From: Fulvitalea axinellae
GTDB taxonomy: Bacteria; Bacteroidota; Bacteroidia; Cytophagales; Cyclobacteriaceae
Reading direction: 5' to 3'
Length of the DNA: 64,000 nucleotides
Assembly: GCF_036492835.1 (NCBI RefSeq)
Contig: NZ_AP025317.1
Location: 248,001 to 312,000, forward strand
Positions 8,906 through 62,182 of this stretch are shown piece after piece. The position numbers and the translations under genes are program-made. The notes below the pieces were generated by a model that saw nothing but the letters and a program-made list of their open reading frames with translations, did no database searches and was not told the DNA's origin. Position 1 is the first letter of the stretch. The number at the start of each line of letters is the position of its first letter.

Positions 8906-10156
8906 ATGAAACTATTACTAAAGAATTTCTTTTTTGGATCGCTGTCCCTAGCTATCCTGAGCTGTGGTGGCCAAAGCCAAGAGCATTCTTCCCGTTTTAC
9001 GCAGAAGCAGGTGGCTTCGCTTCAGATGGGTTCCACCAAGATTTTGTCAGCTACAAATGACTCTGTTGAGACGATTGATTTGAATCCGTTCTTGAAAAAG
9101 CGCCCCTTTGATTTCGGTGAAATTATTGAGGAAGTCCGCCTGATTCCATTAGAATCAACGGAAGAAGCTTTTTTAACTAGGATAGACCAACTGAAGATGA
9201 CTGATTCCCATATCTATATAATGGATGATAAAAAGGGGAGCAGGAACAATGAGGTGGTTATTTTTGACCGGAAGGGACGTTTTATAAAGCGTATACCTAA
9301 AGGCAAAGGCCCAGGGGAACTGAGCCGTGCATATAAAATTGAATTTGATGAGGTGGCTAATGAGTTGATTGTCGATGTACACTCATACCTCAAATTCTTT
9401 AGCCCTGAAGGGAAATTTATTCGGCAGTGGCGCTATCCTTTTTTCTTTCATGGCCTAACAACGCTTCCAGATGGCAATGGCTATGTGTTCAAGTCCATGG
9501 ACAGAGAGGGGAATGAGCATATGGGACATTTGGCTGATTACTTGGTGAAGATCACGGACAAGGATTTTCATCTAAATTCTGTTGCGATGTTTGCTAAACC
9601 AACAGAGGTAATTTTTCACGGGAACAGTTATTTTCATAAAAATAATGGAGAATTATATGTGACAGACAGATTTCAGGATACGGTATTCCAGATTACTTCC
9701 GCTAGCGAAATAAAAGCGCGCTATGTTCTGGATTATAATGACAACCGGCTTCCCCAGCATTATGTATACGGGAAAAATGAAGAGTTCCGAAAGGTCCGAA
9801 AGAGAGGGGAATACGCTTACTATATGGGCGCATACGCTGATGTGGGCACGCACCAGTTTTTTCGGCTTACCACAGAGGATCGTACCGCACTTATATTTAG
9901 AGATAAGTCAACGGGAGTATTGAAAGGAGGAAACGGTAGAAAAGGCTGTGTGGAAGTGCCTAATAATTGGTTTTTCCGTCAATGGACGGCTGGGGATTAC
10001 TTTGTTTCTTATTATACGCCAATGGGTGCCAAACCTTTTCCTGACAGTTCGATTATTCCCGAAGAAGATAAAGCGAGAGCGAGAAACTTGGAGGAAGGGG
10101 ATAATATTGTTTTGGTACTATATAAGCTGAAGCGCTTTGAGAAAGAGCCGACATAA
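8906..10156 (+). CDS. 6-bladed beta-propeller lipoprotein
   Basis: A 416-residue lipoprotein (MKLLLKNFFFGSLSLAILSC lipobox) that resembles the Bacteroidota '6-bladed beta-propeller' family: 'LIPLESTEEAFLTRIDQLKM', 'IYIMDDK', 'VVIFDRKGRFIKRIPKGKGPGEL' and 'KFFSPEGKFIRQWRYP' are the NHL-like blade strands that family shows. Such proteins often sit beside SusCD pairs; the exact role is not established and may be glycan or peptide binding. It has its own upstream AT-rich region after a terminator. Its base composition is more AT-rich than the SusCD pair before it. An insertion sequence lies 20 bp after its stop and separates it from a strong hairpin at 11381-11418. Confidence 0.85.
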   Translation: MKLLLKNFFFGSLSLAILSCGGQSQEHSSRFTQKQVASLQMGSTKILSATNDSVETIDLNPFLKKRPFDFGEIIEEVRLIPLESTEEAFLTRIDQLKMTDSHIYIMDDKKGSRNNEVVIFDRKGRFIKRIPKGKGPGELSRAYKIEFDEVANELIVDVHSYLKFFSPEGKFIRQWRYPFFFHGLTTLPDGNGYVFKSMDREGNEHMGHLADYLVKITDKDFHLNSVAMFAKPTEVIFHGNSYFHKNNGELYVTDRFQDTVFQITSASEIKARYVLDYNDNRLPQHYVYGKNEEFRKVRKRGEYAYYMGAYADVGTHQFFRLTTEDRTALIFRDKSTGVLKGGNGRKGCVEVPNNWFFRQWTAGDYFVSYYTPMGAKPFPDSSIIPEEDKARARNLEEGDNIVLVLYKLKRFEKEPT

Positions 10157-13022: not shown

Positions 13023-13069
13023 CCAGTTTCTCTAAGTATATGGGTACATTACTATCCAAGCGGACAATT

Positions 13070-13112
13070 TACTCTGTACTCTTTACCCTTTACTCTTTTA
13101 CCCTTTACTAAA
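13070..13112. repeat. Period-7 repeat array touching the stop codon of the GH2 gene
   Basis: Six 7-bp units read on the plus strand: TACTCTG, TACTCTT, TACCCTT, TACTCTT, (one extra T), TACCCTT and TACTAAA. Every unit has AC at positions 2-3. The last unit ends at 13112 and the stop codon of the minus-strand gene occupies 13113-13115. Confidence 0.8.
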
Positions 13113-16319
<3,207 letters not shown>

Positions 16320-41288: not shown

Positions 41289-41336
41289 AGAAATAAAAAA
41301 AAGGATAACCATTTGAATGGTTCAGGCCCAAGCACA

Positions 41337-41378
41337 GACAAAGTACCTAAGACTTAATACCTGAGACCAAATACCATC
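41337..41378. repeat. Period-7 repeat array touching the stop codon of the nrdD gene
   Basis: Six 7-bp units on the plus strand: GACAAAG, TACCTAA, GACTTAA, TACCTGA, GACCAAA and TACCATC. All have AC at positions 2-3. The last unit overlaps the first two bases of the stop codon (41377-41379) of the minus-strand nrdD gene. Confidence 0.8.
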
Positions 41379-55021: not shown

Positions 55022-55546
55022 ATGGAAATAGGAAGAGAATTGTCGGGATTAGGCGCTGGCATAAGTGGTGGCGAAGTGTCAATTCATGTAAAAGAAACAC
55101 TGTTTGAGGTGGTGGGCATTACGTCGAAATTGCTTCACGAGAATTGGTTTTTCAAAACCAGCAGCACGGTGGCTATAGCTGTTCCTGTCTTGATTTTACA
55201 AGATATTTCGGGTTTTTATCCGATTAGTCTGTTTTGGCTTATAACAGCCTCAGTCATTGCCTTTATTCTGAATATTCCTTTTCTGTTTATTATGAATGGC
55301 GTTCGTTATGGCTATACCCGAGGAGGCGCTCCAGCTAAATCCTATTATTTTTCTTTTGATAAGCTGGATTTGGAAGGTAAGGAAATGGCTTGGAGTGACG
55401 TGAAAAGTGTTCGCAAGTCCGGAAATTGGATAATCATAAAGGCAGATGGCAAGGACAGTTTGGCAACTATTCCCGTAAGGGCGTTTTCCGGAGATGAATA
55501 TGGCCGGTTTAAAACGATGGCTAAGGAGTTCGGTTTTTCACTTTAG
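55022..55546 (+). CDS. Membrane protein with two helices and a C-terminal YcxB-like domain
   Basis: A 174-residue protein from ATG 55022. Two hydrophobic segments (about 55-72 and 77-96) precede a soluble domain ('YYFSFDKLDLEGKEMAWSDV', 'NWIIIKADGKDSLATIPVRA'). The 'W-S-D-V' followed by an aromatic strand and 'IPVRAFSGDEYGRFKTMAKE' is the YcxB-like pattern, parallel to the protein at 53632. Function unknown. Its stop codon is part of the period-7 array that follows. Confidence 0.65.
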   Translation: MEIGRELSGLGAGISGGEVSIHVKETLFEVVGITSKLLHENWFFKTSSTVAIAVPVLILQDISGFYPISLFWLITASVIAFILNIPFLFIMNGVRYGYTRGGAPAKSYYFSFDKLDLEGKEMAWSDVKSVRKSGNWIIIKADGKDSLATIPVRAFSGDEYGRFKTMAKEFGFSL

Positions 55547-55617
55547 TGTTTGGCTTTCGGTATCGGGTCTTAGGTGAATTTCGACTTGTCACCTAAGACC
55601 AAACACCTTATCATTCT
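55543..55617. repeat. Two opposed period-7 arrays filling the gap between convergent genes
   Basis: Read from each gene's coding strand, the sequence after both stop codons is a run of 7-bp units with a GT core. The plus-strand gene's stop TAG is inside the first unit (complement CACTAAA), followed by AGCCAAA, TACCGAA, GACCCGA and CACCTAA as complements. From the other side GACTTGT, CACCTAA, GACCAAA and CACCTTA run up to the stop of the gene at 55621. The two halves form the inverted repeat GGTCTTAGGTG / CACCTAAGACC, which could serve as a terminator. Confidence 0.75.
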
Positions 55618-55620
55618 CTT

Positions 55621-57606
55621 TCAAAAAGCTAGATTAAGAGTCAAATAAACATTTCGTCCAGGCCTTGGTATTCCTCCCCAGTCTAGGTGGCTCCTGTATT
55701 TTTTGTCGAGGATATTTTCTATACCGGCTTCTATATTATAAGTGTTCTTTTTGCCGAAGCTGTAAGCGCCGCGTAGGTTGGCTATCGCGTATCCCGCGGT
55801 TTCCGATTCGCCAAAGTTCGGGTCCGTTTGGTTTTGCGCGGTTGCGAATTCGCTTTCGGCCGTAAGGCTCAGTTTTTCTTTTTGGAAAGAAAGCGATACG
55901 TTTCCGTTTAGCGGAAGAAGCTGTGGCATGTTTTGCCAATTGTCGTTATCGTCTTGGTATTGGCCGGCGGTGTAGCGGAGGTTTGTTCTGGCAGACCAAT
56001 ATTTGGCAAGACTATAAGTGGCGTAAACGTTGGCGCCGTACTGCCGGGCATTTTCCCGATTGCGAAAAACTTTTACGCCTTTGGCGCCGATGGTCATTCG
56101 GTCCAGGTTAGGATCAATTACGCCCGAGATATAATCGCGGAGCCAAGCGAAATAGGTTTCCGTTTTTACGGAGAGTTTCGTCGTGTTGTATTCTACAACG
56201 TATTGGGCTTTGAAGGTCTGTTCGTTGTCAATGTCCGGGCGGCCTACGTAGTCGTAGCCGTCTTCGGAATTGAAAAGGTAAAAGCCGTATTGTTCCGAGA
56301 CGGTAGGTTGTCTTTCGCTAATAGAAATACCCAGCGCGTGGGCCATGTCGCCGATGTTGTTTTTGATGTCCGAGGCAAAGCTGTAAAGCAAACGGTTGTC
56401 GGCGTTGATTTCGTTTCCGAATATTTCGAATTGCTTTTTGCCGAACTCACTACCGGGGTTTGATCGGGCGAATTCTATGCGGGCGTCGGTGTTCAACGTA
56501 AAATTATCCGCAAACGCGAAACGGTCACCTATATATATAGCCATATTGTTGCGGAATACGTCCGGCCAAGTCTCCATATACATCTCGGGTCCGTTGTTTT
56601 CGGGCGGATACATAGTCATTTCGGCTTTGTGCAGGCTGTTGTAAAAGTCCGCTTTGGCCGTGAAGCCGTGCTTCTTTTTTTGTCCGGATATCTTCAGATA
56701 GGTTCCGTAAGTGCGCGTCTCTCCGGGCATATCCATCCGTACGGGAACGTCGGGGCGTTCCGAGTCGTCCATAATGTGTTTGACCTTGTTGGCGTACACC
56801 TTCCATTCGATATTCTCAATGTCGGAATTGCGGGGAGTGATATTATAAGCCGCTCCGAAAAGAAAAGCTTCGGCAAGGGAAACGTCCATAGGCAAAGCCG
56901 GGTAGCCTACGTCCCAAGCGCGGTCATAGAGTACGTCGGCGGTGACCCAGTTTCGGTCGTTGAGCTTGTACTTGCCGGAGATTAGGTGGTTGGTTTTGTT
57001 ATAATGAGAGAAGCTCACCTTGTCGCCACCGCCCGCCCGGTAGTTGTCGTGCGCCCTATATGATCCGGAATAGCGCAAAGCCAGTTTATCGCCACTATAG
57101 TCCAGCACCCCGAAAGCCTCTTTGCCTTGGCTTGCCGAGAAGTACCCCGTACCGAAATTGCCCGAGAAAGTTTTGCTTTCGTTGTAATTGGCTTCGTGCA
57201 AACAGAAATCAAGACTGCCGCCGGCTACGCACGCGTTTTCCGCCGAAGAGTCGCTGGATGTGGCGTTTACGCTTCTGAGGTTCGCCGTTTCCACATAAGA
57301 GCTGACGGGATCCATTTTGTCCGTACACGCTCCAAAGATCTTCATTCCGGCGACGGTGGTCATAATCTGTCCGCCCGAAAAGCCGAGCATACGGGGTTCG
57401 GCCGCATAATTCCCCCTGCGCACCAAACCGATATTGGATGACCTGGAAAGAATGTCGTCGATATTGCTAAGCGAATGTTTCTTTTCGAAGCCTTTGTCCG
57501 CATTGCCCGTCACCACTATTTCGTTGAGGAAAAGCGTGTCGGCCTGCGCCAAAACAAAATGGCTGAAAAGGCTGAAAGCGATTATAAATAGGAAAGTCTT
57601 TCTCAT
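55621..57606 (-). CDS. TonB-dependent receptor, probably copper (OprC-like)
   Basis: A 661-residue protein from ATG 57606, giving a signal peptide ending HFVLAQ; the longer frame starts in the repeat array upstream. The plug region has 'LNEIVVTGNADKG', 'LVRRGNYAAEPRMLGFSGGQ' and 'GMKIFGACTDKMDPVSSYVE', closely like the 'GACTDxMDP' motif of TonB-type copper receptors. The barrel ends in 'LTLNLAF' with a typical 'NILDKKYRSHLDWGG' region. It should carry copper (or a copper complex) across the outer membrane. Its neighbour upstream on the same strand encodes a Met/His-rich lipoprotein. Confidence 0.85.
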   Translation of the reverse strand: MRKTFLFIIAFSLFSHFVLAQADTLFLNEIVVTGNADKGFEKKHSLSNIDDILSRSSNIGLVRRGNYAAEPRMLGFSGGQIMTTVAGMKIFGACTDKMDPVSSYVETANLRSVNATSSDSSAENACVAGGSLDFCLHEANYNESKTFSGNFGTGYFSASQGKEAFGVLDYSGDKLALRYSGSYRAHDNYRAGGGDKVSFSHYNKTNHLISGKYKLNDRNWVTADVLYDRAWDVGYPALPMDVSLAEAFLFGAAYNITPRNSDIENIEWKVYANKVKHIMDDSERPDVPVRMDMPGETRTYGTYLKISGQKKKHGFTAKADFYNSLHKAEMTMYPPENNGPEMYMETWPDVFRNNMAIYIGDRFAFADNFTLNTDARIEFARSNPGSEFGKKQFEIFGNEINADNRLLYSFASDIKNNIGDMAHALGISISERQPTVSEQYGFYLFNSEDGYDYVGRPDIDNEQTFKAQYVVEYNTTKLSVKTETYFAWLRDYISGVIDPNLDRMTIGAKGVKVFRNRENARQYGANVYATYSLAKYWSARTNLRYTAGQYQDDNDNWQNMPQLLPLNGNVSLSFQKEKLSLTAESEFATAQNQTDPNFGESETAGYAIANLRGAYSFGKKNTYNIEAGIENILDKKYRSHLDWGGIPRPGRNVYLTLNLAF

Positions 57607-57677
57607 AATAAAGAAAAAGGTGCGGACGGAGCGGAAAGCCCGTGGATTGCCCCGCCCGCGATGGAAAGTTATTTGGA

Positions 57678-57786
57678 AGTAAAGAGTCCAGAGTAAAGCG
57701 TAAATAGTCCGCATGATGAAAGAGTATTGTGTAGTTTCCGCTATGATATAGTACTCTTTACTCTGGACTCTTTACGCTTTACTCAC
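57678..57786. repeat. Pair of inverted period-7 arrays in the copper operon
   Basis: The right array (57752-57786) consists of TACTCTT, TACTCTG, GACTCTT, TACGCTT and TACTCAC and ends 3 bp before the stop codon of the gene at 57790. The left array (57678-57712) is the same type in the opposite orientation (AGTAAAG, AGTCCAG, AGTAAAG, CGTAAAT, AGTCCGC). They share a 20-bp exact inverted repeat (57679-57698 and 57756-57775), able to form a long hairpin with a 57-nt loop. Confidence 0.8.
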
Positions 57787-57789
57787 CAT

Positions 57790-58638
57790 TCAATTGAATT
57801 CCAGATAAAAAGCCTCGTCATCGAAGAGTAGGTCTTCGTTTTCCTTTACGTTCAGCTTGATTTGCCAGTCTCCGGTCATCGAGAAGTTTACGCTTCCTTC
57901 GTATTTGCCTTCGCCTTTGTGCGCGGGCTTGGTGCCTTCCGGCGCGCCGTGTCCCATTGAAGGCATAAACGGGCTGATGTTTACGTCGAGATCGGTGAGT
58001 GGCGTGAAATCGAAATGGCCGTCCATGCGGTGGGCGGTAATCAATAGAGGGTTGTTGCCCACTTTCGCTTCGTCGTTGGTAAGGTGATATCCGAAGACGT
58101 AATTCTTCCCGTCTATTCGCCTTACTATTACGGCCTTGCCTTCCTGTTGGTTTTTGTAATCCATCATCTTGTTTTTGACGGAAATAGGCGTGGTGTTTTC
58201 GCGCAGTACGGCGCCATTTTTCATTAGGCTCACTTTCATTTCCCAAGAGCCCATATCGGGCATTCCCGGCATCTGGAAGACAATGGCGCCTTCGAATGTT
58301 CCGGTTTTGGTGGTGGACGTTGGTTGGTACACCGGACATCCGTGTTTCATGCCGGAGTTCATAGTCATAACAGGCGACAACATTATGCCGTCGGCTTCGG
58401 TGTAAGCCTTGTTTCCGGAGTCTTTCAGTTCGATGACGAGTTTGTTGTATCCGGTTCGGTAATCCTCTGTAGCGTGAATAAAAGCTACCGCTTTATTTGG
58501 GAAAACTATACTGTGGATTAGCTTATAAGGGCTTTCCGGTGCGGGATCCTCATTGTCGGAAGAGCAAGACCATAGAAGGGAAACGAAAGCGAGTACGAAT
58601 ATTTTTATCGCTGTTTGTGAGTTTGTTAAGCGATTCAT
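57790..58638 (-). CDS. Met/His-rich periplasmic lipoprotein, YtkA/FixH-like, probable copper binding
   Basis: A 282-residue lipoprotein (lipobox LLWSC). Two beta-rich domains, each like the YtkA/FixH immunoglobulin-type fold. Methionine and histidine clusters fit copper binding: 'MTMNSGMKHGCP', 'MPGMPDMGSWEM' and 'PFMPSMGHGAPEGT'. It precedes the copper-type TonB receptor on the same strand, so it may chaperone or sense copper in the periplasm (inference). Confidence 0.75.
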   Translation of the reverse strand: MNRLTNSQTAIKIFVLAFVSLLWSCSSDNEDPAPESPYKLIHSIVFPNKAVAFIHATEDYRTGYNKLVIELKDSGNKAYTEADGIMLSPVMTMNSGMKHGCPVYQPTSTTKTGTFEGAIVFQMPGMPDMGSWEMKVSLMKNGAVLRENTTPISVKNKMMDYKNQQEGKAVIVRRIDGKNYVFGYHLTNDEAKVGNNPLLITAHRMDGHFDFTPLTDLDVNISPFMPSMGHGAPEGTKPAHKGEGKYEGSVNFSMTGDWQIKLNVKENEDLLFDDEAFYLEFN

Positions 58639-61234: not shown

Positions 61235-61933
61235 ATGGCAAATTATCTTGTAATAGGAGGCACCTCCGGTATCAGCGCCGCATTGGTAGACCTTTTGGTA
61301 AAAGAACAACATGAAGTTTTTCTCATTTCCAGATCAGCTACTTCGGCTACGCTTCCGCCTCAAGTAAAGGCTTTCGGAGCTGATATATTGACGGACCCTT
61401 TTCCGGAAGATTTCCTGCCCGATGTTCTGGACGGTTTGGTCTATAGTCCGGGCAGTATCACGCTCAAGTCTTTTAAGAGTTTACGTGTAGAGGATTTTTT
61501 AGACGACTATGAAGTGAATGTGGCCGGAGCCGTCAAGACTTTGCAAAACTCTTTGCCGGCGCTTAAAAAATCGGAAAATGCTTCGGTTGTGTTTTTCAGT
61601 ACGGTGGCTGTTGGCGTAGGCATGCCTTATCATAGCTTGGTCTCAAGCTCAAAGGGAGCTTTGGAGGGTTTGGTGAGGGCACTGGCCGCCGAATTCGCCC
61701 CGACGATTCGGGTAAATGCGGTCGCTCCGTCCTTGACCGATACGCCTTTAGCTCAAAAGATCCTTTCGACCGATGAGAAGAAAGCTCAGCTTTCGGAAAA
61801 ACATCCGCTTAAAAGGATCGGAACTCCTGATGACGTCGCTCATGCGGTTAAATTCCTGTTAGGAGCCGAGTCTTGTTGGATAACAGGTCAAGTTTTGTCC
61901 GTAGACGGAGGTTTGTCTACGCTCAGGATTTAG
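61235..61933 (+). CDS. SDR-family protein lacking the catalytic tyrosine
   Basis: A 232-residue Rossmann protein. The N-terminal 'VIGGTSGISAALVDLLV' stands where SDR proteins have TGxxxGIG (third Gly replaced by Ser). The active-site region reads 'STVAVGVGMPYHSLVSSSKG': the Lys is present but the position four residues before it, normally Tyr, is Val. 'IRVNAVAPSLTDTPLA' and 'LSVDGG' are otherwise typical. It may bind a nucleotide without classical dehydrogenase chemistry. I recall similar Tyr-less SDR proteins in flavobacteria. Single gene. Confidence 0.8.
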   Translation: MANYLVIGGTSGISAALVDLLVKEQHEVFLISRSATSATLPPQVKAFGADILTDPFPEDFLPDVLDGLVYSPGSITLKSFKSLRVEDFLDDYEVNVAGAVKTLQNSLPALKKSENASVVFFSTVAVGVGMPYHSLVSSSKGALEGLVRALAAEFAPTIRVNAVAPSLTDTPLAQKILSTDEKKAQLSEKHPLKRIGTPDDVAHAVKFLLGAESCWITGQVLSVDGGLSTLRI

Positions 61934-61978
61934 CAAAAATGCTGAAGAGGTTTATGCTGGAATGTCGTTCCAATTCAT

Positions 61979-62020
61979 AACAGTGTACCTAACACTGAAG
62001 ACGTAATACCGAATACCATA
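61979..62020. repeat. Period-7 repeat array between SDR and GH43 genes
   Basis: Units AACAGTG, TACCTAA, CACTGAA, GACGTAA, TACCGAA and TACCATA, all with AC at positions 2-3. Unlike the others it is not next to a stop codon: the SDR stop is 46 bp away and in the opposite orientation. Confidence 0.7.
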
Positions 62021-62182
62021 TAAACATCAGGGGTAGCAGATATATCAAATGTGCAAACAATAGCTAAAATGTTTTAGAGGGTTTTGTTCATTTTGTTTGA
62101 CCAGTCTTTTGGGTAGATTGAACAATGTGTTCGGGGCGTGATTTTCGGCCGAAGCATTTTTGAGAATCTATCTGAAAGAATT

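Follow-up and report, generated by a model that had tools for sequence, protein, structure and literature searches.

Degenerate 7-bp arrays at gene ends of a Bacteroidota genome as probable arms of dispersed elements related to a PF05635 (IVP) gene

Heptad arrays in the window and in the source genome

The 64-kb stretch of DNA analysed here (the window) contains, among other genes, those for a GH2 beta-galactosidase, nrdD, a YcxB-like protein and a YtkA-domain protein, at the ends of which stand degenerate tandem arrays of 7-bp units. An earlier note on this DNA had described such period-7 arrays, each of four to six units with an AC core, and all of them are present in the window (Table 1). 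The two sequence flavours distinguished at that time are also borne out: units of family A are GTAAAGA-like and those of family B GTATTAG-like, and by a rough rule each family accounts for 63 of the 126 arrays considered below. The statement that five arrays begin 0-4 bases from a stop codon has to be corrected, as only three do so (at 13108, 41374 and 55546), with a fourth at a distance of 7 nt (57782); the arms at 57678 and 61979 present the AC strand before a start rather than GT after a stop. That the coding strand carries GT at stops was right, and is half of a wider rule whose other half, the AC strand before starts, had been missed. Within the window the arm at 61975..62016 is an exception, its stop being 41 nt and its called start 121 nt away.

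Table 1. Heptad-array arms of the window, and the RAYT-like gene of the source genome
Feature	Position	Strand	Context and remarks
Family-A arm	13064..13108	-	GTAAAGG GTAAAAGA GTAAAGG GTAAAGA GTACAGA GTAAATT; one 8-bp unit; 4 nt past TGA of GH2 beta-galactosidase gene
Family-B arm, 6 units	41333..41374	-	2 nt past nrdD TGA
Family-B left arm of facing pair, read as 5 units	55546..55580	+	overlaps TAG of YcxB-like gene; second of the 5 units without GT; reading by eye
Right arm facing the 55546 arm, 4 units	55579..55606	-	14 nt past stop end (55621) of convergent gene
Facing family-A arm, 5 units	57679..57713	+	AC on coding strand; overlaps called start region of next gene (true start unsure)
Family-A arm, 5 units	57748..57782	-	7 nt past TGA of YtkA-domain gene
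Family-B arm, 6 units	61975..62016	-	AC on + coding strand; gap between SDR gene and GH43/GH32-like gene
RAYT-like Y1 transposase gene	L064:3775-4350 (G000:C1:3266275-3266850)		own inverted palindromes CCCGGGACGATRTCCCGGG (by eye)

Strong folds were predicted for 57670-57795 (z -5.0 and -7.6) and 55540-55625 (z -3.3 and -5.8), while none was found at 61930-62045 or 13050-13120, and four elements elsewhere gave z values of -5.2, -3.1, -2.4 and 0.3/-0.1. A search of the window against Rfam returned nothing at gathering scores. At nrdD, for which relatives come from a Cytophagales MAG (74% identity), Flammeovirga and Persicobacter, the stop falls at the same residue in 6 of 8 relatives (by eye); no heptad array was seen by eye at the nrdD 3' ends of the 8 named relatives, which are too distant to serve as proof of an empty site. 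A palindrome of about 46 bp with GTAC ends, another kind of element at a stop codon, adjoins the nrdD stop of Flammeovirga sp. OC4 (L048:4828-4880) and is absent from the close relative L044.

The earlier note had called for a comparison with randomized sequence, and period-7 runs proved to lie far above chance. Within the window, exact runs of at least five units at 7-bp spacing numbered 4 for AC against 0.00 expected and 1 for GT against 0.07 (expectations from 30 Markov-1 sequences); no other dinucleotide gave a run of at least five at spacing 7, and across spacings of 4 to 14 the only other such run was at 6 (GT, 1 against 0.03). Over a sample made up of the window and 40 20-kb stretches (864 kb, of which 844 kb were readable as one stretch, L010, is all N), there were 28 GT/AC runs of at least five at spacing 7 against 0.4 expected; the all-N stretch formed part of the input of this count and was excluded from gene calling onward. 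Weaker excesses at lag 7 were seen in the sample for AA/TT (33 against 11.4) and TA (4 against 0.4), and at other spacings the GT/AC excess fell mainly at multiples of three (6: 8 against 0.6; 15: 7 against 0.6; 18: 9 against 1.2; 21: 5 against 0.2). Scanning the whole genome (7.39 Mb, 15 contigs) with a pattern for the arrays produced 138 matches, against 6 for the reversed pattern. Units vary within one array while GT stays constant, and the order of units recurs between sites (the latter by eye).

Placement at stops and starts, and the pairing of arms

The arrays obey a simple rule of placement, in which GT lies on the coding strand after a stop and AC lies on the coding strand before a start. 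The position test comprised 126 arrays of at least 18 bits, including those from 36 stretches centred on matches to the pattern, which is blind to gene orientation; genes were called with a dicodon model, and some short genes were missed. In a sample with a non-coding share of about 16%, 116 of the 126 arrays were intergenic, and 114 of these had both neighbours (2 lacked one). The end predicted by the rule was the nearer one for 95 of the 114, against a null of 56.7, and no permutation out of 5000 reached that number. Arrays at most 15 bp from the predicted end numbered 63 (null 19.2), as compared with 8 equally close to the wrong end (null 19.1). Both flavours follow the rule (A in 51 of 58 cases, B in 44 of 56), and in convergent gaps 16 of 23 GT sides, but 0 of 23 AC sides, lay no more than 15 bp from their stop. 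Several successive gaps of one operon (L063) each have a GT arm at the stop together with an AC arm that ends a few bases before the start, and some arrays themselves supply the stop codon (negative distances).

The rule was seen in two further genomes, which had been picked on account of their arrays. For G384, which belongs to the same family and has units such as GTATAAG and GTAAGTG, 19 of 24 intergenic arrays were nearer the predicted end (null 12.0; 11 of 2000 permutations as high), 10 being within 20 bp of it (null 2.5) and 0 within 20 bp of the other end. For G150, from another family of the class and with GTGAAGA units, the corresponding count was 16 of 23 (null 11.4; 88 of 2000, a weak result), with 12 arrays within 20 bp of the predicted end (null 3.3; 0 of 2000) and 1 on the wrong side. 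The pattern was found in 262 of 296 genomes of the phylum and in 118 of 119 of the family, counts that say little about amounts because the reversed control is equally high in many genomes.

Adjacent arms tend to face each other: the G strand pointed inward in 25 pairs against 3 outward, and 23 of the 25 facing pairs were made of arms of the same family. Among the array-bearing gaps in the 1.16 Mb examined, at the threshold used, 24 of 83 had arms on both strands and 59 on one strand only, and most of the two-strand gaps held no called gene between the arms. About 5 of 17 aligned family-A copies share a body of roughly 100 bp after the array that ends in a short inverse match (by eye). Dispersed copies with inverted termini and no ORF, as is typical of MITE-like elements, were found in most of these 24 gaps, with the body shared in some copies. 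Given the facing arms, the shared bodies and the constant GT, the arrays look like arms of dispersed elements, and since core and spacing are constant and the number of units varies little, the arms resemble recognition sites. Of the options raised in the earlier note, protein-binding sites and mobile repeats at gene ends therefore fit best, whereas a 3'-end element is too narrow a description, because complemented arms are also found immediately ahead of start codons. Arms were no more complementary to their own partner than to other arms of the same family (9 of 25 pairs above the median; mean 15.1 against 15.8), so there is no visible upkeep of a stem in itself, and selection for pairing between arms was not supported. 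Two further kinds of repeat were noted in the source genome: about 2.4-kb tandem repeats at L039:5300-18660, with called genes on one strand and near-identical AC arrays at stop/start junctions, and GTAGAGA-type palindromic repeats close to heptad arrays at L040:15931-15960 and in L029 near 9000-9060 (by eye).

An IVP gene between the arms

The 23S rRNA-intervening sequence protein of family PF05635 (IVP or S23p), a four-helix bundle, is ring-shaped and has until now been met chiefly in insertions within rRNA genes. The source genome has a sole PF05635 gene (E 3.8e-38 in the genome search), hereafter IVP. In L073, where it lies, a GT arm follows the sucB stop at a distance of 6 nt, the IVP gene comes next, and an AC arm stands 5 nt upstream of the lpdA ATG; the names sucB and lpdA were assigned by eye from the protein ends. 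The arms surrounding it are of family A; no IVP gene with family-B arms was found there. A tblastn search for IVP remnants in the window and 75 readable stretches of the source genome returned only the intact gene as a convincing match (next E 0.008), and the protein had no match in phage records at E 1e-3.

An IVP ORF was found beside arrays in both of the other genomes. In G384, one array-bearing junction (L128, 4020-4686) exceeds its counterparts in the syntenic genomes G310 and G413 (71-75% DNA identity) by 625-670 bp, and the extra DNA contains arms and an ORF that matches PF05635 at 3.6e-25; G384 has 13 PF05635 genes. As the short G413 gap keeps two GGGAATA-like units, the difference in length could reflect a loss in G413. 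In G150 the sole PF05635 match is an ORF in L147, positioned between an 11-unit GTGAAGA array and stretches of the AC strand (the latter by eye), and the G150 stretches, L147 included, had been chosen for their arrays alone. This genome has 304 pattern matches to 1 IVP gene, so the relation between the number of IVP genes and that of arrays cannot be simple.

Membership of the family is borne out by a score of 133.1 bits against the PF05635 profile (cut-off 33.8), by a match to TIGR02436 and by one to the structure 2gsc at E 3.9e-24. The source-genome protein is predicted with high confidence to form four helices (pLDDT 93.7), and the model is closest to 2gsc (Xanthomonas Xcc0516; TM 0.93) and 2rld, which contain five chains each; PMC4990558 describes the 2gsc protein as a homopentamer. 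The fold is also like that of Avd from diversity-generating systems (DGRs), with a TM of 0.81 to 4dwl at a weak E of 0.014, and like Avd-like chains in DGR ribonucleoprotein entries; profile matches to this group were weak and below cut-off (bAvd PF22296, E 1.1e-4; NF033474, E 1.9e-6 for L227). A resemblance of PF05635 to Avd has been noted before in PMC10053308.

To extend the comparison we surveyed 76 IVP loci, consisting of that of the source genome, the 30 best-scoring in the family, the 30 best-scoring in the phylum and 15 on plasmids (12 of them cyanobacterial, the 15 being from 31 plasmid records). These are best-scoring loci, as opposed to a random draw, from Bacteroidota, cyanobacteria and two others; a motif served to locate the IVP ORFs of the phylum loci, and that of L196 may be wrongly placed. 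We determined the best self-match lag between 4 and 12 in the 150 bp next to each gene end. Lag 7 was best in 61.0 of the upstream and 60.8 of the downstream flanks of the 76 genes and lag 8 in 7.5 of each, as compared with lag 7 being best in 30.3 of 304 control windows (10%) elsewhere in the same loci. Lag-7 scores of at least 18/28 were reached upstream and downstream in 22 and 26 of 31 loci for the family, 16 and 10 of 30 for the phylum and 10 and 11 of 15 for the plasmids (control 11 of 304), and lag 7 won against five other lags in 30 and 28 of 31, 22 and 22 of 30, and 10 and 11 of 15, respectively; support from the flanks is thus weaker outside the family. Lag 8 was best on both sides of the IVP gene in L205, L212, L215, L234, L235 and L237.

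Using a crude ORF finder to assign neighbours, we found the IVP gene between a stop and the next start on its own strand at 59 of the 76 loci, antisense in such a gap at 4 and otherwise placed at 2, with an unknown neighbour at 11. Certain junctions recurred, namely sucB/lpdA, fadB/fadA and fadA/acyl-CoA dehydrogenase (names by eye), and recurrent junctions could mean old, domesticated insertions. The annotated junctions with IVP on cyanobacterial plasmids were nrdB/nrdA, cas6/cas4 (twice) and cmr2/cmr3, so that in L227, L229 and L234 the IVP genes lie within CRISPR-Cas operons (cas6/cas4, cmr2/cmr3).

The length of the unit, 7 or 8, and its core, GT or AGA, are distributed in keeping with the tree of the IVP proteins. 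On a tree of 75 proteins (L193, which has an in-frame stop, was omitted), built from few columns and with many open forks and four long branches, the period label (66 proteins with 7 and 9 with 8) took 3 changes against 8.7 when shuffled, and the core (35 GT and 17 AGA) took 7 against 14.6, with 0 of 500 shufflings as low in either case; 14 of the 66 period-7 IVPs lacked a clear core, and the 9 period-8 IVPs were excluded from the core count. This bears on the idea that the arrays are stand-alone regulatory sites in RNA or DNA, bound at stops and starts by S1, Csp, CsrA or another host protein, with IVP genes merely being there too. The tight placement near stops and starts and the recurrent operon junctions would fit such sites, and a translational role has been proposed for the TAACTGA repeats in PMC4679880. 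Nevertheless we judge it unlikely, because some copies have sequence in common beyond the array, because one syntenic junction is short in relatives, and because unit length and core track the IVP protein.

Unit number, proposed explanation and known systems

Runs above chance in the source genome are mostly, but not strictly, of five units. The 844-kb unbiased sample contained 21 exact runs of four units against 18.0 expected, 24 of five against 0, 4 of six against 0 and none of at least seven. Around pattern matches (36 stretches, chosen from about 100 of the 138 matches with a pattern that itself selects for arrays), there were 28 runs of four units against 4.0, 43 of five and 15 of six against 0 each, 3 of seven and 1 of eight. 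Elsewhere arrays are longer, with up to 10 units in G384 and 14 in G150. Among the flanks of IVP genes with an AGA run of at least four, 20 of 27 had 5 units, and for GT runs of at least four the flanks had 4 units in 22 cases, 5 in 13, 6 in 3 and more in 3.

These lengths are pertinent to the possibility that the arrays are ordinary simple-sequence repeats, generated by slippage in spacers, with the GT orientation, which has stops in all frames, surviving at gene ends. The arrays that supply a stop codon, the long near-perfect arrays of G150, which look slippage-grown, and the spread over 4-8 units in match-centred stretches are all in keeping with this. In the unbiased sample, however, five-unit runs are abundant and four-unit runs at chance, and there is no falling tail as of simple repeats; moreover, units differ within an array while GT stays, the nrdD stop, common to relatives, precedes its array, flavour B, often with stops on both strands, shows the same bias, and the association with IVP would be left unexplained. 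We therefore regard simple repeats as very unlikely. The supply of stop codons was likewise considered as a full explanation and rejected, as the bias extends to flavour B.

A third possibility is that pre-existing arrays act as hot spots that attract IVP genes, in which case the arms would be foreign to the IVP element. The 83 array-bearing gaps in 1.16 Mb set against one IVP gene in the whole genome, and genome G324, which has 51 pattern matches (control 9) and no PF05635 match, speak for it. It is highly improbable even so, since period-8 arms go with particular IVP lineages, a pairing not easily obtained from arrays unconnected with the protein. Finally, movement of REP/REPIN-like elements by a RAYT (Y1 transposase) has next to no probability and was rejected, for although the single Y1_Tnp gene of the source genome lies 716 bp from one array, that array stands at the start of another gene, and the RAYT gene is flanked by different palindromes of its own (Table 1) rather than by the arrays, as REP elements would require.

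We consider it probable instead that small dispersed elements of IVS/IVP type, present mostly as non-autonomous copies, have the arrays as their terminal arms. A full-length element would comprise a G-strand arm of some five heptads, in which GT or AGA is the invariant core, a PF05635 ORF and an arm of the same kind in inverse orientation. Such elements would sit in gene junctions, mostly co-directional ones, and would usually place one arm at the stop of the first gene and its counterpart immediately ahead of the following start. Most copies examined in the source genome consist of arms only, with or without a short body, and would thus be non-autonomous, with the single IVP gene acting on them in trans. 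That arrays there most often have five units, that the protein has five chains, and that unit and protein co-vary suggests that an IVP pentamer would read the array, one heptad per subunit. As the footprint of a pentamer, AGA runs fit well and GT runs less so, and the arrays of G384 and G150 are longer. Junctions may be tolerated because a cut or a stem between cistrons would harm no ORF, by analogy with the excision of rRNA IVSs by RNase III, and we infer that the elements are mobile. Neither duplication of a target site nor an excision event was observed.

Degenerate 7-bp arrays fill the spacers of many bacterial genomes, where they may give rise to spurious ORFs, and several reports describe them but offer no cause. 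If the link to PF05635 is true, it would give these arrays a gene and would provide a probable substrate for a protein whose function is otherwise obscure, the "four helix bundle protein"; the old idea of mobile rRNA intervening sequences would likewise become testable outside rRNA. A broader proposal, possible but doubtful, is that of a class of mobile elements extending over Bacteroidota, cyanobacteria and probably further, which would end in arrays of heptads or, in some lineages, octads. An array would usually have five units and would be covered by a single IVP homopentamer, each subunit taking one unit. These elements would move between junctions via RNA or cDNA with a reverse transcriptase acting in trans, as Avd helps DGRs, and the class would unify the heptamer arrays of Bacteroidota, Xanthomonas, Beggiatoaceae and Nostoc with rRNA IVSs.

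Some rRNA IVSs elsewhere are ORF-less. The nearest known case is the Coxiella 23S IVS, for which PMC4990558 describes a PF05635-type ORF, complementary termini and tandem heptamers (three GACAGAT and one GACAGAA, the number varying by strain) directly before the S23p ORF, with an RNase III site at the first heptamer repeat. The elements described here likewise have a PF05635/S23p ORF in the long form, but the arrays and IVP genes examined lie between protein genes, rather than in helices of 16S or 23S rRNA, and differ in having degenerate heptad-array arms and many arms-only copies in one genome. Among open-licence PMC papers, none turned up that connects heptad arrays to PF05635 elements lying elsewhere than in rRNA.

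Several heptamer families resemble the arrays in other respects. The GGGNATC heptamers of Xanthomonas and GGGGAYT heptamers of Nostoc are intergenic 7-bp units with occasional inverted pairs, the G strand lying in sense within 50 bp after stops and in antisense before starts; in contrast, the main text of PMC4692102 describes them as G-quadruplex repeats, for which its authors generally see no mobile-element link, and it contains neither "S23" nor "helix bundle". The TAACTGA repeats of Beggiatoaceae are 7-bp units with an AC core that stand before starts and, in one Bacteroidetes case, reversed and directly after a stop, but their units are near-identical and were read as possible translational sites, and "S23", "helix bundle" and "intervening" are absent from the main text of PMC4679880. 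According to PMC4476775, degenerate heptads (TDNGATT or NNTGAGT) of unknown origin form the facing stem arms of P6b in the Nostoc trnL intron, which differs in that they lie inside a group I intron. With respect to a reverse transcriptase, the sole RVT_1 match of the source genome (L059:4720-6001; G000:C1:1868719 onward) is away from the IVP gene, and no further link between this gene and the arrays was found. The RVT_1 gene follows an ORF in which a SWIM-like motif was seen by eye, and an array stands about 2.2 kb off, at the start of the cluster.
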